Positions 2,156-26,092 of a stretch of DNA of 26,110 bases are shown piece after piece. The stretch spans positions 1 through 26,110 of IMG/VR virus record IMGVR_UViG_3300033388_006958; one strand, written 5' to 3'. A program made the translations under genes and the position numbers. The notes beneath the pieces were generated by a model, which worked only from the letters and a program-made list of their open reading frames with translations, did not search any database and was not told the origin of the DNA. Origin of the DNA: a virus. Numbering within the stretch: position 1 is the stretch's first letter; the number at the start of each line of letters is the position of its first letter.

Positions 2156-3181
2156 TCAATTTGAAGTCCTGATGGTTATTCCAAAACTATTTTCCACTAA
2201 AATAGTTGTTAAGCGTGCAGTAAAGATCGCAGGAGTATCTACTGTGGTATCAATTATGATGAAATGGAAGATATAACCGGCGCTTGAGCCTGTCTGTGCA
2301 TCTATAACAGCAGTGCTTGTGCCTGCCGTTGAGCTAATAGATCCGGCCCCAGACAATACTTCAAGTTCCATAGCCCATCCTGCAGAAGAACCTTCCAGCA
2401 CAGGATTTTGATATTGATCTCTGACTTCGGCTGTAATCGAAGCAGTTGAGACTGCAGATGATAAATCCGTATTATTTGCCGATATATCGATAACATGAGG
2501 GACAGCCTTTGACCATACTCTGTCTATATCATTATCATTAATCGCTGTTTGGCCATAATGAATGAGTATTCTGGCAAGCTCAAAATGAGCTTCCGGAAGA
2601 TCCGGTATAGTTGCTGCAGTTGCCGAAGATCTGAATGTGGTGCCTGTGATAAGATCAATAGCTGCGTCAGTGCCTACCGCTATTAAATCATAACGACAAT
2701 TATTCACCGAAGCAGGCGCGGCGGTAATAGTGGTATTTACACTCGTAACCGATACAGTATCACCTCCTATACGTACAACACCACTATCAATATCAACACT
2801 CATTTCAGATACTAAAGATACCTCGCTCACAACACATCCGGACAAAACTCTATTTGTTAGTGTTGACGGATTTGCATATGGAGTATTTTCCCCTATTTTT
2901 TGCGCCGGGATAATATGCCCAGGCCCTATTATTTCCAGTGTGTTTCTAAATCCATTTCTATGAGACATTTGAACGGGGCATCCTAATTGCACCCAATTGG
3001 GAATCACCATCCAGGACGGTGGAAAATCAACCTGAATTATATCGGTTGAGCCAAGGACTTTCACCCCGCAATTATACGCTGTTGAGTTTATGGACCATAT
3101 AATGCCATTATGGAGCTCTAAAGATTGCTCTGCCACAGATTTTATATCTTTATTTATAAACTGCCGATTATATGTTTTCAT
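2156..3181 (-). CDS. Tail-tip protein with C-terminal bacterial Ig-like domain
   Basis: 341 residues from the ATG at 3181, which overlaps the upstream hub gene's stop as ATGA; a TTG at 3190 is possible but weaker. The N-terminal two thirds are beta-rich with a phage-specific look. Residues from about 245 onward (ITAEVRDQYQNPV, a Gly/Ser-rich middle, then FTARL) resemble an invasin/intimin-type Big_1 Ig-like domain, often found on phage tail tips and fibres. Position directly after the tail hub suggests a tip or receptor-contact role. Function is inferred from place and fold pattern only. Confidence 0.6.
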   Translation of the reverse strand: MKTYNRQFINKDIKSVAEQSLELHNGIIWSINSTAYNCGVKVLGSTDIIQVDFPPSWMVIPNWVQLGCPVQMSHRNGFRNTLEIIGPGHIIPAQKIGENTPYANPSTLTNRVLSGCVVSEVSLVSEMSVDIDSGVVRIGGDTVSVTSVNTTITAAPASVNNCRYDLIAVGTDAAIDLITGTTFRSSATAATIPDLPEAHFELARILIHYGQTAINDNDIDRVWSKAVPHVIDISANNTDLSSAVSTASITAEVRDQYQNPVLEGSSAGWAMELEVLSGAGSISSTAGTSTAVIDAQTGSSAGYIFHFIIIDTTVDTPAIFTARLTTILVENSFGITIRTSN

Positions 3182-6100
3182 ATTTGCCAACCTTCTATGG
3201 TGTCAAACATTCCGCCTGCCGCATCTGATTTGCTCGGAATTCTTATTCTGCGGGTTATATTTGTAATATATAATTTCACGTTAGCTTGGCTTATAGGATG
3301 AAGAACACTTATAGTATCGCCCTCTTCATCTTGAAGATGACCTATTTTATTAATGGTTACACGGGATCTTTGTAGCCGTGTTATCAGCATTTCATGTTCG
3401 GCGACAAAGGTGCATTGAGCATCCGTATATGCAAGAGGTTCGGCAATTGTGCGCTTTATGACACGGCCCATTTTCGTTTGGAAGACTGTGTCATCGGCAA
3501 TACCCTCAACTGAAGCTTTTACATACCCTATCGGCTGCGCTATTATGGTAGCCTGCCAGTTTGTAACTGATCCTAAAATTCTAAATATTTCTAAAAGGGC
3601 CACAGCCTTTACGAAATTGCCTACTATCGGCAGTGTCCCTAACGACAAAGAGCCCGTAATTGCAAGGGCTAATTCAGTAATCAAGAGCGGAGCATCTAAT
3701 TTTAAGGTTCCGAACGTATTGCTTGCATCCGCAGTCCAAGTCCATTTCAGCTTGTCTTTAAATAAAAAATTGCCTTTCAGATTTTTAACATCGGGGTATG
3801 GAGATAAACATTGCAGGGAATAATCATCGGCATAAGGGATTTTAATTTCTTCATTGCCCTGCCACCACCCAATAGTCCCATGTGATATTTGGATTTCTTT
3901 CTCCGGATATATGATTTGACTAAACAACCGCTCCTCTGACTGCACTATAATCCTGTTGACATAATCTGAATAATCATTATCCGGGGTAAACTCTAAAATA
4001 TCCGTTAGATTTGTATACGCATGATCCGTGCCGGCCTCGTCCGTTATTTTCTTAACATCAAATGAGTTATCAACATCGCAGCGCAAAAAATAGCCGAATC
4101 TATCACATATAGACCCTACGATGTCTAATATTTTTGCATTAGTCCAGGCGCTATACAGAGGTGTTCGATCATCGATTTCCGAGATTGAAATATTACTATG
4201 ATCTATTGCGCCTTTTTGATTTAAGATTGCAGTAATAATAGTCTCCGGAAAGGCGCCGGTATATTGCTGCGTCGTGATAAGCTCCATATCTGCTAATGGA
4301 CTGCTTGAATCTGCGCAAATAACTTGAATTAACGGCATAACGCCTTTTTTATATGAAAGGCTCCTATTCTTGACGTGAAAGGTTCCTTGGTTTTGCCAAT
4401 ATTCAGAGGAAGATACATTTTCTCCAAGCCTGCAGGTGAGGATTGATCCCTTCTTTATATATATTTTTAGCATTGCAAATACATTGCTCTCATCGAAATA
4501 ATGAGCGGAGACAAGAGTAAACGACAATCTTGCCGATTTATTATCTATTGTACGCTCAATTATGATGTCTTTATCAGTTGAGAGATAGGGGCTTAAATCA
4601 AAGGTTGTAACCTCTTTATCCCATTTTAAGGATAAGGACGTTTCCCAAAAGGCATAAAAATCATTAGTTGTAGGCTCTAAACATATAACAGTGTCGGAAT
4701 TATCCACGCCTTCTATAAATTTAGGAGCCGCGCCGTTGAAATCGCCTTGTGTATCATATCGCGTCACTTGACCGGAATAGTCATCGTTAAAATAGGGCGC
4801 AAAAAAAATGTACCTCGATCCGGTAAAAACAGCGCCACGGAACCCTTTTGAGTCGGCATGGACATCCGTGGTATCATACACAGCCCACGATCTGGCAGAA
4901 GTGAAAGCCCCGTGTGTATCATAGCGCGTCACTTGTCCAAAAGTCGCGCCATTATTTTGCGGCACAAAAAAAATGAAACGCGAGCCGTCATAAACAGCAG
5001 AGGAAAACCCTTTTGAATTGGCATGGACATCCGTGGTGTCATACACAGCCCAGGAAGCGGCATTATCAAAAGCCCCGTGTGTATCATAGCGCGTCACTTG
5101 CCCAAAATACGCGCCATTTTCAAATGGCACAAAAAAAATGTAACGACCATCAAAAACAGCAGAGGAAAACCCTTTTGAGTCGGCAAAATCTCCCCCCGGA
5201 CCCGTGGTGTCATACACAGCCCAGGAATCGGCATTATCAAACGCCCCCTTTGTATCATAGCGCGTGACTTGCCCGAAATACGCGCCATTGTCAAAAGGCA
5301 CAAAAAAAATGTAGCGCGAGCCGTCATAAACGGCAGAGGAAAACCCTTTTGAATTGGCAAAATCTCCCCCCGGACCTGTCGTATCATACACTGCCCACGA
5401 CCCGGCTGCATCGAAAGCCCCTTGCGTATCATAGCGCGTCACTTGCCCAAACGGTGCGCCGTTATCATTAGGCACAAAAAAAATGTAACGACCATCAAAA
5501 ACAGCAGAGGAAAACCCTTTTGAATCTGCAAAATCTCCCCCTGGCCCTGTCGTATCATAAATGGCCCACGACCCGGCTGCATCGAAAGCCCCTTGCGTAT
5601 CATAGCGCGTCACTTGCCCAAACGGTGCGCCGTTATCATTAGGCACAAAAAAAATGTAACGCGAGCCGTCAAAAACGGCGTTGGAAAACCCTTTTGAATC
5701 TGCAAAATCTCCCCCTGGCCCTGTCGTATCATAAATGGCCCACGACCCGGCTGCATCGAAAGCCCCCTGCGTATCATAGCGCGTCACCTGTCCAAATGGT
5801 GCGCCATTATCATTAGGCACAAAGAAAATATAGCGCGATCCGTCAAAAACAGCGTTGGAAAACCCTTTTGAGTCGGCAAAATCTCCCCCCGGACCAGTGG
5901 TGTCATACACCGAATAAGACGGTAATCCGAAACTAAGCGCCCAAGCGGCGCCTCCCCAATTATTTATTTTGTAGAGAGAGGTTGCTTGCTTAGACCACTT
6001 ATAATCACTTTGTGTATCATACCGCGTTACTTGTCCAAAAGGCGCGGGGGCATTACTGGGAACAAAGAAAATATTGCGCGAGCCATCATAGACAGCGCCC

Positions 6101-8046
6101 GCAAACCCTTTTGAGTCGGCATTTACATCCGTGGTGTCATACACAGCCCAGGATGCGGCTTCAGTGAACGCCCCGCGTGTATCATACCGCGTCATCTGCC
6201 CAGAAAATGAGCCATTATTATAAGCCACAAAGAAAATATAATGCGAGCCATCATAAACACCGCCCCAAAAGCCTTTTGAATTTGCGAAAGCTCCCCCAGG
6301 CCCTGTGGTATCATAAACTGCCCATGATGCTGCATTAGTGAAATCTCCGTGTGTATCATACCGCGTCACTTGGCCATTGTGATTTGGCACAAAGAAAATA
6401 TAGCGCGAGCCGTCAAAAACACCGCCGCGAAAGCCTAGTGAATTGGCGTTTACCTCTGTCGTATCGTAGACAGCCCATGATGCGGCTTCAGTGAACGCCC
6501 CTTGTGTATCATACCGCGTCACTTGGCCAAACACTGCGCCATTATTATTTGGCACAAAGAAAATATAGCGCGAGCCGTCAAAAACAGCGTTCCAAAAGCC
6601 TTTTGAATTGGCATGTACCTCTGTCGTATCGTAGACAGCCCATGATGCGGCCTCAGTGAACACCCCTTGTGTATCATAGCGCGTTACTTGCCCAAACGCT
6701 GCGCCATTATTATTTGGCACAAAGAAAATATAGCGCGAGCCGTCAAAAATAGCGCCGCGAAAGCCTTTTGAATTGGCAAAAGCTCCACCAGGCCCTGTGG
6801 TATCATAGACTGCCCATGATGCTGCATTAGTGAAATCTCCGTCCATATCATAGCGAGTTACTTGACCGAAATAGGCACCATTAAAATTTGGCACAAAGAA
6901 AATATAGTGCGAGTCGGCAAAAACAGCGCCCCAAAAGCCTTTTGAATCGGCGTAATCGCCTCCTGGAGAGGTTGTGTCATAGACTGCCCATGATGCTGCA
7001 TTAGTAAAATCTCCGTCCATATCATAGCGAGTTACTTGACCGGAAGGAGCTCCGTCGTCATATGGCACAAAGAAAATATGGTGTGAGCCGTCAAAAACAG
7101 CGCCCTTAAAACCTTTCGAATCGGCAAAATCTCCACCAGGCCCCGTCGTATCGTAAACGTCAAAAGAGTCTATTGGAATCTCTACCTCATTATAAACAAT
7201 ATGCATCTCTGTCGTAGCCTGCTGTGCCGCTATCGGATGACGCGCATATCTACTTGTTGTCGCATATGTAGTAATCTCCACAGCGGATGCCCAATCAACG
7301 CCGTCATTGGCAGAAATAGAATAATAGCAGTTGGTTATATCCGTTGCATCGGTGTAGTCAAAAAGAATAAAAACATCATCAGTATCTATCTGACAAAGAG
7401 ATACATTATATTTTTCTTCGGTAGATATTCCTGCCGGTTCGATAACCGCCTCTGCAGACCAGGAAGAAAAATCATCACAGGTGCGCTTATTAATATTCCA
7501 TTCCGGATTAGTGTCTTCCACTATATAAACGAGTAGATAATCACCCGATGCCATCAGAATACAAAAAGGGCTTCTTATCGTAGGATAGGAAGCGATGGCA
7601 TAAGTTTCTATTAACGCATTGCTTGAAACTACGCCGGTTATTGAGAGGATCGTTTGCCGTAAATAATAATCCGATCCGTCGTAGCAGGTAAAAACAAGAC
7701 CTATTGTTGCGTCGGCAAGCTCTACAATAGTACAATCTGTAATAGTCACCGCGCCACCGAGACCTAAATCCGTCGTATCGTCTAGGGTTACAGTTGTCTC
7801 AAAAATTTTCCTCTCTATATCAGAATATATATATTGCAATTTATCAGTGCCAAAGACAGAAATAGAGCATACCCGCCCGGTACTATGAGTTATAACGTTT
7901 GGATTAGTCTCATCCGTGGTTTCGGCGGTCAATAAATTACCCTCAAGGGGAATACTCTGCCCGCCGGCATTCTTTATCTCTGCAATAATTTTATGAGAAT
8001 CGCCATCCTGAGCCGTTTTAAGCGTTGCATTTAAGGTTATTGACAA
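3178..8046 (-). CDS. Giant tail hub protein with an inserted 14-repeat propeller array
   Basis: 1622 residues in three parts. Residues 1-293 are a beta-rich BNR/sialidase-like region. Residues 297-1107 are 14 tandem repeats of about 55 residues built on YDTT, DSKGF, FDGSRYIFFVP, NG and GQVTRYDT. Residues 1110-1622 look like a siphophage tail hub: a beta-rich region, a long helical/hydrophobic stretch near 1490, and a final domain ending in an EGW motif. The hub would cap the tail and contact the Ig-like protein encoded next; the repeats probably form one or two propellers displayed outward. The start is TTG at 8046, directly after the upstream gene's TAA and in the same frame, with GAGGT 11 bases upstream; no in-frame ATG occurs for over 100 codons. 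Confidence 0.75.
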   Translation of the reverse strand: MSITLNATLKTAQDGDSHKIIAEIKNAGGQSIPLEGNLLTAETTDETNPNVITHSTGRVCSISVFGTDKLQYIYSDIERKIFETTVTLDDTTDLGLGGAVTITDCTIVELADATIGLVFTCYDGSDYYLRQTILSITGVVSSNALIETYAIASYPTIRSPFCILMASGDYLLVYIVEDTNPEWNINKRTCDDFSSWSAEAVIEPAGISTEEKYNVSLCQIDTDDVFILFDYTDATDITNCYYSISANDGVDWASAVEITTYATTSRYARHPIAAQQATTEMHIVYNEVEIPIDSFDVYDTTGPGGDFADSKGFKGAVFDGSHHIFFVPYDDGAPSGQVTRYDMDGDFTNAASWAVYDTTSPGGDYADSKGFWGAVFADSHYIFFVPNFNGAYFGQVTRYDMDGDFTNAASWAVYDTTGPGGAFANSKGFRGAIFDGSRYIFFVPNNNGAAFGQVTRYDTQGVFTEAASWAVYDTTEVHANSKGFWNAVFDGSRYIFFVPNNNGAVFGQVTRYDTQGAFTEAASWAVYDTTEVNANSLGFRGGVFDGSRYIFFVPNHNGQVTRYDTHGDFTNAASWAVYDTTGPGGAFANSKGFWGGVYDGSHYIFFVAYNNGSFSGQMTRYDTRGAFTEAASWAVYDTTDVNADSKGFAGAVYDGSRNIFFVPSNAPAPFGQVTRYDTQSDYKWSKQATSLYKINNWGGAAWALSFGLPSYSVYDTTGPGGDFADSKGFSNAVFDGSRYIFFVPNDNGAPFGQVTRYDTQGAFDAAGSWAIYDTTGPGGDFADSKGFSNAVFDGSRYIFFVPNDNGAPFGQVTRYDTQGAFDAAGSWAIYDTTGPGGDFADSKGFSSAVFDGRYIFFVPNDNGAPFGQVTRYDTQGAFDAAGSWAVYDTTGPGGDFANSKGFSSAVYDGSRYIFFVPFDNGAYFGQVTRYDTKGAFDNADSWAVYDTTGPGGDFADSKGFSSAVFDGRYIFFVPFENGAYFGQVTRYDTHGAFDNAASWAVYDTTDVHANSKGFSSAVYDGSRFIFFVPQNNGATFGQVTRYDTHGAFTSARSWAVYDTTDVHADSKGFRGAVFTGSRYIFFAPYFNDDYSGQVTRYDTQGDFNGAAPKFIEGVDNSDTVICLEPTTNDFYAFWETSLSLKWDKEVTTFDLSPYLSTDKDIIIERTIDNKSARLSFTLVSAHYFDESNVFAMLKIYIKKGSILTCRLGENVSSSEYWQNQGTFHVKNRSLSYKKGVMPLIQVICADSSSPLADMELITTQQYTGAFPETIITAILNQKGAIDHSNISISEIDDRTPLYSAWTNAKILDIVGSICDRFGYFLRCDVDNSFDVKKITDEAGTDHAYTNLTDILEFTPDNDYSDYVNRIIVQSEERLFSQIIYPEKEIQISHGTIGWWQGNEEIKIPYADDYSLQCLSPYPDVKNLKGNFLFKDKLKWTWTADASNTFGTLKLDAPLLITELALAITGSLSLGTLPIVGNFVKAVALLEIFRILGSVTNWQATIIAQPIGYVKASVEGIADDTVFQTKMGRVIKRTIAEPLAYTDAQCTFVAEHEMLITRLQRSRVTINKIGHLQDEEGDTISVLHPISQANVKLYITNITRRIRIPSKSDAAGGMFDTIEGWQI
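4723..7158 (-). repeat. Array of 14 tandem coding repeats in the tail hub gene
   Basis: Fourteen units, usually 165-174 bases. Two length forms alternate: one with TTGPGGDFADSKGF and one three residues shorter with TTDVHADSKGF. Units 8, 9 and 10 (about 5400-5920) are nearly identical in DNA, so the expansion is recent. Unit 7 carries a roughly 20-residue unrelated insert (around 5930-6010). Units 9-14 have an eight-base T run in the IFFV codons, while units 1-8 have TATTTTCTTTG instead. Confidence 0.9.
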
Positions 8047-12167: not shown

Positions 12168-13136
12168 CGTTGGAACCGGTGGTTTTGGCAGAGGTGGGCT
12201 AATATATGCAACCCAAGCTCGCGAATTTATTGTGCCAGCCCAAAGATTACTTTCTACTGTATCACCCCATATCCCATATACATCCGTAGAATATGCCGTG
12301 ATTCCTTCCGCTTGCCAAATAATCCCATTTCCCGTGCTATATACTGAAGATTCACCTATATTTGCACTGTCACCGCATACATATAATTTTTCATAAAATA
12401 CCTCTAAATGCCTACAATTATCTAGTCCGGAAAAAACTGACACCCATGAAGTTGCAGTTACTAATTTATACACATGTCCCGATGAATCACAACAATACAA
12501 ATTACCAGCAAATTCTTGCATGCTTACTACATTATTATTGTTGGCAACAGAAAGCCCTGTGCTGGCATTAACCCAACCGGGAGAAATTGGATCCACTGTA
12601 TAATATACTGAATCACGCTTATCAGAATTATTATACTGTCCGCAGATATAAAATTTGCCTGAATATTCTATCATTGCATAGCAAGAACGCATAGGATGAG
12701 ATACACCGAACCAATCACCTCCACCATTATCAGTGTAATAATATCTTCCAGTCGTGCCATAAGCTATATTTGAAGTAACACCCATAAAAAGCCTGCTGTC
12801 TATAGCATAAAAATCTGTCCCCATAGGACGACTAGCCGTACCTACGATCTTTGTAGTCCAATCAATACCATTATCAGTATAATAAACAGTAGCTTTTGCA
12901 TCACCAATCCCGCTAGCAAACAATCTCCCATTATGGACAATAAGCCGTCTACAATAATAACCCGTACCGTTAGGGCGTTCATTTGTCATAGTCCAATTTG
13001 TGCCGCCATCGGTAGTATAAGGGACTCCGTAATGACAGGAGGCATAAAGTCTATTCAAAAATCGCTTAAAATCGCGACAATAGGACGGAGAAGCAAGATG
13101 AGCTCCGGTGTTTTTTAATGACCAAGATAAACTCAT
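11511..13136 (-). CDS. Beta-propeller fused to a tail-tube protein
   Basis: 541 residues. Residues 1-310 contain at least five BNR-like blades, each with a VYYTDNGxxW-type strand and an xLYxCG-type strand. A proline linker (PPLPKPPVP, about 313-321) leads to residues 324-541, which are close to the whole 219-residue tail-tube paralogue encoded just upstream (13168-13827). The fusion would put a propeller on tail-tube subunits, probably for surface or sugar contact (inference). The ATG at 13136 follows AGGA within the AATTAGGAAT motif. This is much longer than ordinary tail-tube proteins (about 140-250 residues). Confidence 0.8.
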   Translation of the reverse strand: MSLSWSLKNTGAHLASPSYCRDFKRFLNRLYASCHYGVPYTTDGGTNWTMTNERPNGTGYYCRRLIVHNGRLFASGIGDAKATVYYTDNGIDWTTKIVGTASRPMGTDFYAIDSRLFMGVTSNIAYGTTGRYYYTDNGGGDWFGVSHPMRSCYAMIEYSGKFYICGQYNNSDKRDSVYYTVDPISPGWVNASTGLSVANNNNVVSMQEFAGNLYCCDSSGHVYKLVTATSWVSVFSGLDNCRHLEVFYEKLYVCGDSANIGESSVYSTGNGIIWQAEGITAYSTDVYGIWGDTVESNLWAGTINSRAWVAYISPPLPKPPVPTESQGTRFRRASTVLVNSSDSTTMEIKSTAIECTGVIDFVALGFTTNMLIICNAQDTNIYAIKDVVATAIAIYGDFSATGSTNIIITGYNMGGIGEVTKFGGLGSGSVPVIDITPLGSNSQFPKLKGLPDEGQLSLTLNYNATDTGQKGLKSDRVGRVRNLYDILFTDIIKTDSAMPSRAAFFAYSKNFMPSGAVNGKVSANSVLEITGAVQYSTKVTT

Positions 13137-20199: not shown

Positions 20200-20412
20200 T
20201 TATAATGGATTTTGTCTTTTTGCTCTATTTTTTTTTCGTTCATTTTTTTTTATTTTTTCCTCTATCTTCGGAATATCCCCTATATTTCCAAATGCCATAA
20301 GCCTTCCATATTCCCCCTCTGAAAGCTCAGTTATAAAATCCCCTCTCCCACACCATTTTCCATTGTCTTGATTGACGCATGGGGTCAAAACTACCCACTT
20401 CCCGTGTATCAT
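20200..20412 (-). CDS. Small charged protein of unknown function
   Basis: 70 residues from the ATG at 20412, which overlaps the upstream stop as ATGA; a TTG at 20427 would extend it. Residues 1-30 carry Trp, Cys and Gly (GKWVVLTPCVN, GKWCGRGDF), and the C-terminal 20 residues are almost all Lys, Glu, Asn and Arg. No family recognised. Coupled to the Rossmann-like gene. Confidence 0.55.
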   Translation of the reverse strand: MIHGKWVVLTPCVNQDNGKWCGRGDFITELSEGEYGRLMAFGNIGDIPKIEEKIKKNERKKNRAKRQNPL

Positions 20413-21176
20413 TTGCAGCCATCCCAAATCTTGAGCATCTCGGTGAGAGCGACCTCTGACCCTATATATTGCTCCACTTGTTTTGCTCCCATATCGCGTT
20501 GCATCATTGCCTGTTGGCGTCTTTGCTGCATCGCCCCTATTGTATGTTTCACTTTCTTTGAAAAGGCATCTTCTTTTTGCTCTTCGAACCCGTACAAAAA
20601 CCGATTTTTCATTAGATCGGCCTCATCCGGCAAAATTACATTTATCCCCATCCCCTTCGCCAACCCGATAAAATATTCGCAGCTAGGCCTTTGTTTAGCA
20701 TATTCTGTCCCAACTGCCATATCTACGCCAAATATAGCAATCTCTTTAAACCCGAGATACAACCCCAAGGCAATTTCGCAGGAAATTGTATTAGTTATAT
20801 ATCTACCGTATTTGGCAACAACCTCTGTGAGAGGGTATTTCATGGAATTCTTGATCGAAGGCCATTTTTTTTGCATATAGACCTGGCATTTAAGACTTGC
20901 TAATTTTGTAATATAGGTATCAACGGCTAATCCCCTGAAACTCCTACTCCCGCGCCGTGAAAAATTGAGACCATCGAACGCAATATTATGAATTTCAAAC
21001 CATCGCGTCCACGGCACATCGGGAAAAGTGAGGAATAAATTATTAACCCCCCAGAATTCATAATTAGGATCCGTGACCGGCGCCAATGATTTTGAATCCG
21101 AGCATCCTATGATACATAATTTTTCTTTTATTCTTTTTGTCGGTGATACATAATTACATTCATTATCTTTTTTCAT
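20409..21176 (-). CDS. Conserved Rossmann-like phage protein, function unknown
   Basis: 255 residues from ATG 21176 (TTG at 21179 is the alternative), with AGGTAA upstream. The protein has an N-terminal LCIIGCSDSKSLAP loop, an FWGVNNLFL strand, RWFEIHN, and later IAIFGVDM and PSCEYFIGLAKGMGINV. These motifs recur in a family of phage proteins of Rossmann-like fold that I cannot link to a known reaction; a nucleotide-sugar or nucleoside-binding enzyme is possible. The last third (about 190-255) is helical and Gln/Lys rich. It stands between capsid and fibre genes. Confidence 0.65.
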   Translation of the reverse strand: MKKDNECNYVSPTKRIKEKLCIIGCSDSKSLAPVTDPNYEFWGVNNLFLTFPDVPWTRWFEIHNIAFDGLNFSRRGSRSFRGLAVDTYITKLASLKCQVYMQKKWPSIKNSMKYPLTEVVAKYGRYITNTISCEIALGLYLGFKEIAIFGVDMAVGTEYAKQRPSCEYFIGLAKGMGINVILPDEADLMKNRFLYGFEEQKEDAFSKKVKHTIGAMQQRRQQAMMQRDMGAKQVEQYIGSEVALTEMLKIWDGCK

Positions 21177-21218
21177 CAATTTACCTAACTTACCTTTCTT
21201 TTTTATTAATCATTAATT

Positions 21219-23549: not shown

Positions 23550-24191
23550 TTATATGTTTTCATTCTGAACGCGCTCAAAATAGCGCCGATAAAAAGATAA
23601 ATTTGGCCCTATATGATCAAATCTATTTTTATATATATTTTCTAATGATTCCATCTCAGCGGTATTGTTTCTGTAATTTACATCGGTGGTCTTATATTGG
23701 GGATACGTTACTATTGATATATCGCGTAAGGTAACATCCTTTATTTGTCTAAGAGCGTTTTTACCTTTACCTCTTTTTTCACCGGAGATCCAGTTTTCCT
23801 CATTAACCCTAAATGAAAAAGACTGCCCGGTTACATCGCCTCTCTGAACCGATGTGATAATATCACGACCTGCTGTTGTGTCCGGAGGATCGATGACGGA
23901 CATGAGGCCCTTTTTATCCTCCGTTAACTCAAGTGTATTTGCTTTATTTCGTCCTATAATAAGAGAAGGGTTGTGATCTATTAGTGCTCTAACGTCATCG
24001 CCTTTAATAGCATTTTTGAACGCTCCTGGCATGATCTCTTCGTCAAACCAATACAAATCAGTTATTTCACCAAATCGGGCAGAGTAGCCCCTTAACTTTT
24101 TATCTTCTCCTTCAGCGTCTGCCCTGTATTCTATTGTGCCGAAAAAATTACGGCTTTCAATAAGGTTTATATCCTCATTATTCTTGGGCAT
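23550..24191 (-). CDS. Prohead protease (U35/HK97 family)
   Basis: 213 residues. The start of the catalytic domain (RGYSARFGEI), the conserved DEEIMPGAF segment, His73 in IDHNPSLIIGR and Ser124 in TGQSFSF are the visible active-site region of this serine protease family. The enzyme matures the capsid by cutting the N-terminal scaffold of the major capsid protein. The ATG at 24191 has AGGAG ten bases upstream and overlaps the portal gene by 14 bases. Confidence 0.9.
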   Translation of the reverse strand: MPKNNEDINLIESRNFFGTIEYRADAEGEDKKLRGYSARFGEITDLYWFDEEIMPGAFKNAIKGDDVRALIDHNPSLIIGRNKANTLELTEDKKGLMSVIDPPDTTAGRDIITSVQRGDVTGQSFSFRVNEENWISGEKRGKGKNALRQIKDVTLRDISIVTYPQYKTTDVNYRNNTAEMESLENIYKNRFDHIGPNLSFYRRYFERVQNENI

Positions 24192-25398
24192 CTTTTGTGT
24201 TCTCCTTTGTTTTCCTTGGGTTCTCTACATCTTCCATATTAAGCGGCATGAGATACTTTTTACCGGCGCCATTAGGAAGCGGGTTCAAGTTTTCTTTAGC
24301 CCGAATCTCATCTACATTAAGCATTCCCCATTGTCTCCCTATGGCATAAGCGCGGTATCTGGTTACTAGATCTCCCCTAAGAAGTCCATCTACGTTAAAT
24401 TCAAAATATATGCGGGCCTGGTCTTCCTCCGGGACTAATTGTGTATTAACTCTCTGTTCTGTTTTTACAAGCCAGGGGAGGCAAGTGAAAACCACGAACG
24501 ACTGCATGAATTGTTCTCTATTGGAATATACGCCGGTTTTTGAGGGCTCGTTTAACAATTCCAACGGGACATTATACCAACGGGCCACATCACGCACTTG
24601 GAACTCTCTGGTTTGTAAATATTGTGAGTCTTCATTAGAAAGTGAGGCGGCTTTATATGTCATCCCCTCTTCAAGAACGCGAATTTTAAATTTATTTTCA
24701 CCCGTCATTTTTTTATTATAGGATTTTTCTATATTTTCTCGCGCTTTACCTTTCAGTATTGCCGGGTGTTCTAAATATCCGGATGCCCGTGCGCCATTTG
24801 CAAAATAAGTATAGCCATGATTTTCAGCTTCCAATGATAGATTTATAGATTTTTTTGCATACGTTATAGGAGATAATCCGGTTAAACCATCAAGAGTTAA
24901 ATTTTTGCAATGGAATATACGCTCGGGAGGATATTGTTTTTGTGGTCCATCTTCATGATTATATGTATAAATGATTTTATTATTTTTTATTTCAGGAGTC
25001 ATACGATTTGAATCCATGGGTAGGATTTCTGTAATATAACCACGATCATAATTTATAGCACCATAATTGTTCCCATTGAAATTTATATTGGTTACAAGAA
25101 GTTCGAAAAATTCAGCGCGCGTTTGTAAAACATTTGGCTTTCTAAATACTTTAGCAAGAAAATAAGTGGAATATTCTTCTCTACCTCCATCTTTTGTGCG
25201 TTCGTAACATTTAAATGGTAGTGTCCCTATGGTTTCTGATAATATTTTATTGCAGGCATAAACAGTTGCAACCTTAAGCGCTGCTGATTTTGATATTGAG
25301 TTAGACGATGAGCCTAATAGTTGATTAAACCAATGATCGGGATTGCGGATTGATGACCTGGTGAAAAAGTTTTTGAGATATTGTATTGCTCGTAACAT
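24178..25398 (-). CDS. Portal protein (HK97 type)
   Basis: 406 residues. The domain typical of HK97-type portals is visible: VATVYACNKILSETIGTLPF near the N-terminus, FFELLVTNINFNGNNY, a central FHCKNLTLDGLTGLSPI, LNEPSKTGVYSNREQFMQSF, and a C-terminal LLRGDLVTRYRAYAIGRQWG with NEIR-like and ENLNPLP segments. Twelve copies form the ring through which DNA is packed. The ATG at 25398 has only a distant GGGGGA. It is the first gene after the strong promoter at 25468-25496. Confidence 0.93.
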   Translation of the reverse strand: MLRAIQYLKNFFTRSSIRNPDHWFNQLLGSSSNSISKSAALKVATVYACNKILSETIGTLPFKCYERTKDGGREEYSTYFLAKVFRKPNVLQTRAEFFELLVTNINFNGNNYGAINYDRGYITEILPMDSNRMTPEIKNNKIIYTYNHEDGPQKQYPPERIFHCKNLTLDGLTGLSPITYAKKSINLSLEAENHGYTYFANGARASGYLEHPAILKGKARENIEKSYNKKMTGENKFKIRVLEEGMTYKAASLSNEDSQYLQTREFQVRDVARWYNVPLELLNEPSKTGVYSNREQFMQSFVVFTCLPWLVKTEQRVNTQLVPEEDQARIYFEFNVDGLLRGDLVTRYRAYAIGRQWGMLNVDEIRAKENLNPLPNGAGKKYLMPLNMEDVENPRKTKENTKDAQE

Positions 25399-25439
25399 TA
25401 TGCTATCAAGCGTCCCCCAATATATAACAATAAATCATG

Positions 25440-25460
25440 AGGATATCCGAAGGATATCCT
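25440..25460. promoter_or_regulatory. Perfect hairpin at the predicted transcript start
   Basis: AGGATATCC and GGATATCCT around a three-base loop. It begins about where the minus-strand transcript from the promoter at 25468-25496 should start, so it could be an operator over +1 or a protective 5' hairpin of the capsid mRNA. Confidence 0.55.
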
Positions 25461-25467
25461 TTCTATT

Positions 25468-25496
25468 ATTTTACAAGAGGTTATGGATTCTGTCAA
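25468..25496 (-). promoter_or_regulatory. Consensus sigma70 promoter of the structural operon
   Basis: On the minus strand: TTGACA (25491-25496), exactly 17 bases, then TAAAAT (25468-25473). It points at the portal gene 70 bases downstream and could drive the whole structural module. The DnaA-box cluster lies just upstream. Confidence 0.75.
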
Positions 25497-25508
25497 GTTA
25501 TTAACAGT

Positions 25509-25604
25509 TTATCCACAGGACAATATATGTGTTATCCACAAGTTATTCACAAGACAAGGTATTGGTTTGTTTATGTTATTTGGGGTGAAATAGAGTTATC
25601 CACA
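25509..25604 (+). other. Cluster of four DnaA boxes, possible replication origin
   Basis: Perfect TTATCCACA at 25509-25517, 25532-25540 and 25596-25604, and the one-mismatch TTATTCACA at 25543-25551, all on the plus strand and in non-coding DNA. The middle pair are 11 bases apart, one helical turn. AT-rich sequence lies at 25411-25437 and 25518-25531. Host DnaA should bind here, either to start replication or to control the adjacent promoter. No initiator gene is visible in the window. Confidence 0.75.
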
Positions 25605-25723
25605 GGTACTATTACTACTACTTTAAATAGATACGTAGTATCCTTAGGGGGGTCCGGGGGGAATAAAGTCATAGATAAGTGGAGAAATGTCAGGTTGAGC
25701 GATTTGTTATCTGCACATTAATT
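25605..25723. other. Intergenic region with G-rich tract
   Basis: Between the DnaA boxes and the FnIII-like gene: GGGGGGTCCGGGGGG at 25647-25661, a small inverted repeat GATAC/GTATC (25630-25634 and 25638-25642) and otherwise AT-rich sequence. A plus-strand frame crosses it (25437-25721) but has no protein-like composition. The G tract could be a cohesive-end or origin element; no proof. Confidence 0.35.
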
Positions 25724-26092
25724 TCATTGGATAATCACATAATTCTTAATATGAAATATCATCGGTGCAGCAGGGGCGTTACTATCGATATAAATTACAT
25801 GCTGTACTTCGTTTGAATAATCACTTTCAAAGTCCGATTCATCAAAAGCAGTAAGAACGAAATAAAGAGACACACCGCTTTCCATATCCGTTTGTAGTGT
25901 ATATTGATTAGCATCTGCCATAATTACAGATGGATCGGAGGTATAATCACCTGATGTATTACTTTGATATAGGTTGTAACCGTCAAGGTCAGTCTCTGTA
26001 TTTCTGTCCCATCCGAATGTTATATTCACAACTTTTGCATATGCTGAGACTGCAAATAATATAATACATAAAAATAATAGTAGCTTTTTCAT
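25724..26092 (-). CDS. Secreted fibronectin type III-like protein
   Basis: 122 residues. A clear signal peptide (Lys-Lys then a hydrophobic core, cleavage after Ala-Tyr-Ala at about residue 19) precedes one FnIII-like domain: NITFGWDRNTETDLDGYNLY, YTLQTDMESGVSLYFVLTAFDES and SDYSNEVQ. The last 20 residues (NAPAAPMIFHIKNY) are a short extension. The protein would be exported and might bind sugar or another protein at the host surface. The ATG at 26092 follows AAGGGA. It belongs to a different unit from the capsid operon, since the promoter region separates them. Confidence 0.75.
   Translation of the reverse strand: MKKLLLFLCIILFAVSAYAKVVNITFGWDRNTETDLDGYNLYQSNTSGDYTSDPSVIMADANQYTLQTDMESGVSLYFVLTAFDESDFESDYSNEVQHVIYIDSNAPAAPMIFHIKNYVIIQ

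Follow-up and report, generated by a model that had tools for sequence, protein, structure and literature searches.

Origins of P1-type phage-plasmids combine Rep iterons with helper DnaA boxes. For bacteria a basal unwinding system (BUS) has been described, of which the DnaA-trios constitute the single-strand half (PMC8287927). The trio consensus is 3'-GAT-5', present in at least 3 copies and at most 16 bp away from a DnaA box (PMC8287927, PMC6669920), and the BUS has been described for chromosome origins. In E. coli, the in vivo targets of DnaA are double boxes with gaps of 2-3 bases, and at purH one of the two boxes is a 7/9 match and the other is perfect (PMC11317965). With respect to plasmids, a 2024 review of their origins indicates that there are so far no published data on the binding of DnaA to the single-stranded DUE (PMC10797057). 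Within the literature that we searched, as judged by title or abstract, no paper on DnaA-trios in phages was found.

The locus described here is part of an IMG/VR virus record that was analyzed as a whole (26,110 bases; referred to as the window). The record is classed as linear and the window is therefore probably a fragment. The region from 25498 to about 25640 resembles the unwinding core of oriC and probably represents a replication origin of the phage, or one of several. The features concerned are the following:

24178..25398, minus strand: portal protein gene, with which the head operon starts (PF04860, E=1.8e-92; phrog_12)
25440..25460, minus strand: hairpin in the portal leader, AGGATATCC-TTC-GGATATCCT
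25468..25496, minus strand: putative sigma-70 promoter, TTGACA-17-TAAAAT (11/12 match), of the late operon headed by portal
25498..25517, plus strand: double DnaA box A, TTATTAACA (7/9), 2 bases and TTATCCACA
25532..25551, plus strand: double DnaA box B, TTATCCACA, AG and TTATTCACA (11-base spacing)
25596..25604, plus strand: trio-proximal DnaA box, TTATCCACA
25606..25623, plus strand: DnaA-trios, top strand GTA CTA TTA CTA CTA CTT
25607..25649: candidate stretch for DNA unwinding, A+T-rich, covering the trios and the DNA immediately to their right
25724..26092, minus strand: secreted-looking ORF of 122 aa, on the far side of the element from the portal gene
Left end of the window: terminase small subunit gene
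Other minus-strand genes: prohead protease, capsid, connector, tape measure, large tail proteins, HNH and NucT-like nuclease

The element is located in a gap of 325 bases that separates the 122-codon ORF (minor tail protein as a weak PHROG match, no Pfam match) from the portal gene, at 0.5 kb from the contig end. Recognised genes are nearly all on the minus strand across the window. The ORF list of these 26 kb contained no recognised rep, par or integrase genes and, by reading, no dnaA or dnaN; neither did the list and the family searches reveal a linked replication initiator gene within the 26 kb of this incomplete record. The fragment thus speaks neither for nor against the phage-plasmid style of replication that the earlier note put forward. 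A tRNA scan and an Rfam scan of the window yielded no hits, and a simple end-word search yielded no end repeats. GC skew gives no guidance, as it lacks a sharp switch at the element and is around zero already within the portal gene. Among the other gene products, the tail protein of 1622 residues (3178-8046) contains many YDTTGPGGDFADSKGFSNAVFDGSRYIFFVPNDNGAPFGQVTRYDTQGAF-like repeat copies and looks propeller-like. The protein encoded at 20409-21179, without Pfam or PHROG match, forms one family of about 230-260 aa with those encoded at 7414-8097 of contig L038 and 4997-5668 of contig L020 (motifs WAVNN / FWGVNN and WTRWFE).

Three copies of TTATCCACA (at 25509, 25532 and 25596) and one of TTATTCACA (at 25543) are found on the plus strand within 96 bases (25509-25604), precisely as the earlier note had it, and the two boxes that it placed one helical turn apart are the second and the third, at a distance of 11 bases. 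A fifth and weaker box (TTATTAACA, 7/9) at 25498-25506 forms, across a gap of 2 bases, a second double box. When the window was shuffled 2000 times with dinucleotides preserved, two same-strand TTATYCACA within 96 bases turned up once and otherwise at most one, and four boxes were reached in none of 20000 shuffles of the intergenic region. Double boxes, recovered with the same threshold, had a shuffle mean of 0.12 per window, versus the two observed. Elsewhere in the window there is a single TTATNCACA, at 12466 (TTATACACA). Apart from the DnaA boxes, a direct-repeat search of the region found no repeat in more than two copies, and it uncovered no iterons in the element. On the available evidence the DNA of the cluster appears to be non-coding, in agreement with the earlier reading: the 94-codon ORF that spans the boxes (25437-25721, plus strand) lacks a Pfam or PHROG match and was rejected as a gene. 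It carries the box-derived peptide 'YPQVIH', which recurs in other ORFs that overlie box arrays.

After the last box come GG and then TACTATTACTACTAC (run TACTATTACTACTACTT). The complement of the trios reads 3'-CAT GAT AAT GAT GAT GAA-5', and thus holds six trios, four of which are G/A-A-T. The trios start at 25606 and the consensus box TTATCCACA at 25596-25604 lies upstream of them within the 16 bp of the BUS, while their strand and side, as well as their orientation, are those found in the dnaA-linked loci L055, L056, L060 and L063-L066. The window has one TAYx5 run, located 2 bases past the last box, and such a run appeared in 8 of 4000 shuffled strands; a search of both strands gave no other TAYx4 or longer. 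The trio pattern was picked after the window had been seen; the orientation controls and the dnaA linkage described below are independent of the window. According to nearest-neighbour stability, the 40-base windows starting at 25590 and 25610 rank among the least stable 4-5% of the window. The A+T-rich stretch measures no more than about 40 bases and gives way to a G-rich run at about 25648. This run, GGGGGGTCCGGGGGG at 25648-25664, could form a G-quadruplex.

As a positive control for the combination of box and trios, a genome collection (257 Gb, 84,980 species) was searched with the pattern TTATCCACA-N0-4-TAYx5, which resulted in 17 matches. Given that 10 of these 17 loci also hold dnaA (Bac_DnaA, Pfam-confirmed), the pattern acts largely as a detector of dnaA-linked origins. 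Another three loci, rich in boxes, come from Persephonella and Hydrogenothermaceae. Locus L062, on a contig of a Nitrospira MAG (DYJL01000023.1, 2930-3500), contains more than 15 DnaA boxes and a core of 27 bases that is identical to the box-plus-trio of the window. The adjoining RusA-like resolvase gene suggests that this locus may itself be mobile, probably a phage or other mobile element that was placed in the bin. Counted from the trio box, the other boxes of the window are positioned at -87, -64 and -53, and the weak box at -98, and in the dnaA-linked Clostridia origin L056 boxes occur at -64, -53 and -9. This likeness in -64/-53/0 spacing is a post hoc observation of descriptive value. 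Nine of the 17 genome loci and 2 of 12 viral loci have a box between -50 and -57. The trio box of the window has no tandem partner at -9; several chromosomal origins have one.

The 12 viral loci were recovered from IMG/VR with the pattern of the genome search, widened to N0-12 between box and trios. A wrong-strand trio after the box gave no matches in the same database and a reversed box followed by the trio gave two. Further boxes were found nearby in 9 of the 12 matches; the other three resemble chance hits with a lone exact box, and two of these share one sequence. Among the loci with readable genes, the box-plus-trio of G014 (L051) lies within the head and connector region, and in G003 (L041) a box cluster is situated where the terminase/portal and primase-helicase/polymerase blocks diverge, with a CTACTACTACTA run further downstream. 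A second pattern search yielded eight related marine virus contigs (L072-L076, L078-L080) in which the order box-box-trio-box is nearly invariant (GTTATCCACAGGTTATCCACAACTTAYTACTATTA...TTATCCACAACT) between variable flanks; in four of them (L075, L076, L078, L079) the element is about 170-230 bases away from the large terminase gene. The remark in the earlier note that an origin against the portal gene is not the usual arrangement was thus too strong, considering that such elements occur near packaging or structural genes in several other virus contigs. Elements of the marine type come and go, because relatives by terminase (the pelagiphages HTVC027P and HTVC023P and the phages 023Pt_psg01 and DSL-LC04, with cultured ones such as HTVC027P among them) show no box cluster or trio near TerL. 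BLASTN of the element of the window against phages and plasmids returned short partial matches only. Two other arrangements were encountered. Escherichia phage P483 (L085, T7-like) has an unannotated DnaA-box array without adjacent trios at about 2940-3070, near a packaging gene. L021 has a near-palindromic box-plus-trio, with trios on both strands flanking an A+T-rich centre, which adjoins an ORF that reads as RusA-like and has no Pfam match.

Relatives of the phage were collected from IMG/VR as well. The portal protein alone retrieved no relative and the capsid protein alone one, while a two-row capsid alignment retrieved five loci, including L020; the alignment found no relatives in the bacterial genomes. 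Five contigs have the capsid (36-63% identity) and the portal in common with the window. Absence of the boxes from relatives, which the earlier note would take as a refutation, was found in part: none of the five has DnaA boxes upstream of the portal gene, so that the position is not conserved, but the closest relative (G001/L033; capsid 63%) has a double box elsewhere. It is the only one in 24.6 kb, with none in 60 shuffles, and is flanked by a Lin1244_N gene (assigned to DNA replication initiation by PHROG) on one side and the genes for a nuclease, TerS and TerL on the other. Very A+T-rich DNA is found 3' of this double box and two direct repeats of 58 bases beyond. The fact that this relative has an initiator of its own suggests that the phage group may normally combine such a protein with DnaA, and the missing part of the phage in the window may hold an initiator too. 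In L033 (3734-7682) and L040 (2468-7332), reading of the sequence revealed gene insertions between TerL and portal, with sialic-acid-synthase-like, SDR, cytidylyltransferase-like and methyltransferase-like genes.

Taken as an origin, the element would work as follows. Host DnaA would bind double-stranded DNA at both double boxes and at the box next to the trios, and would then oligomerise onto the adjacent DnaA-trios in single-stranded form. In this way the A+T-rich stretch over and right of 25607 would be melted, which would allow a helicase to be loaded, perhaps with the help of a phage initiator or helicase loader, and replication to start, from an intergenic site at the beginning of the late, portal-first operon. 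The earlier note had left the choice between replication from this point and a capsid promoter tied to the level of host DnaA. For the former, strong support on anatomical grounds comes from the DnaA-trio, from the presence of double boxes and from a spacing like that of oriC. As to the latter, a predicted promoter of the head operon adjoins the boxes; the neighbouring gene is that of the portal, the first of the operon, and not that of the capsid. Only two sites with an 11/12 match are found in the 26 kb window, one of which is the portal candidate, the best match in the region, and the -35 of this predicted promoter (25496-25468, minus strand) is one base away from double box A, so a box is present at or near the promoter as in promoters that are regulated by DnaA. 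DnaA is a known transcription factor, a role with which PMC8203912 deals, and the marine phage family keeps its box pair, trio-like run and third box almost unchanged close to TerL. All of this would suit a late promoter for portal that is activated or repressed by DnaA sitting on double box A and the boxes further upstream, without any start of replication, and where expression of the head genes is timed to the DnaA-ATP level or the phage copy number. We nevertheless regard this explanation as unlikely, as it accounts neither for trios at 2 bases from the box that is farthest from the promoter, nor for the oriC-like -64/-53/0 spacing. The two roles are compatible and could coexist: given the single base between double box A and the -35, binding of DnaA could affect late transcription too.

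The resemblance to the core of a chromosomal origin, the location at 0.5 kb from the contig end and the lack of the element in the portal region of the relatives would also be compatible with a piece of host oriC that was joined to the phage by integration or misassembly. Such a chimera seems very improbable, considering that the scan of the window found no tRNA and that dnaA, dnaN and integrase were not recognised in its ORF list. Moreover, the element shares its intergenic region with the portal's own promoter, the start of the portal gene is not a prophage end, and comparable elements reside inside other phage genomes. A decoy, by which the phage would bind host DnaA to stop or disturb initiation in the host while no DNA is opened at the element, finds a parallel in the trio-less array near the packaging gene of the lytic T7-like phage P483. 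Yet a decoy has no need of trios, directional order or an A+T-rich neighbour, and as few as five boxes would serve titration poorly, which makes this a very unlikely purpose. An origin opened by host DnaA remains our preferred reading. Its most far-reaching form, to which we attach only a tentative and rather low likelihood, is a stand-alone phage origin of the oriC type that host DnaA opens via the trios without a phage initiator, and that is fused to the late promoter in such a way that DnaA occupancy links copying to head expression.

Ordinary DnaA boxes alone would be of modest interest. More noteworthy, judged from sequence, is a full module of box and trios beside the late operon of a phage, one that has counterparts in other virus contigs. 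If phages indeed carry such complete modules, they would use the most tightly regulated initiation step of their host in place of, or together with, a phage-encoded initiator, and phage copying would be tied to host DnaA-ATP. Such modules would also offer a sequence signature by which phage origins could be predicted in metagenomes, and biochemists would have small natural BUS scaffolds to work with.

Several described systems share part of this anatomy. Like P1-type phage-plasmid origins, the candidate origin contains DnaA boxes, but no iterons and no adjacent rep gene were recognised, and it has trios. Similar to the origin-like region of the closest relative, it has a double DnaA box with an A+T-rich 3' side that points away from the late genes, boxes that are antiparallel to these genes, and a position ahead of a packaging or structural block; the relative differs in having its own initiator gene and long direct repeats, in lacking a trio, and in that its region precedes the terminase genes instead of portal. 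The two box pairs with 2-base gaps, one of which starts with a 7/9 box as at purH, recall the DnaA regulon of E. coli (PMC11317965), although in the window they are followed by trios and reside in a phage. The BUS of bacterial oriC, as known from B. subtilis (PMC8287927, PMC6669920), differs in its location, since the element of the window resides in a phage, where it is flanked by a small ORF and by portal and not by dnaA, and in that the window has a single box beside the trios and a short A+T-rich stretch. It corresponds in the box with a short spacer (at most 16 bp) and in the six trios, with A as the middle base and in the correct strand and order, and the box spacing is like that of the dnaA-linked Clostridia origins recovered in the genome search.
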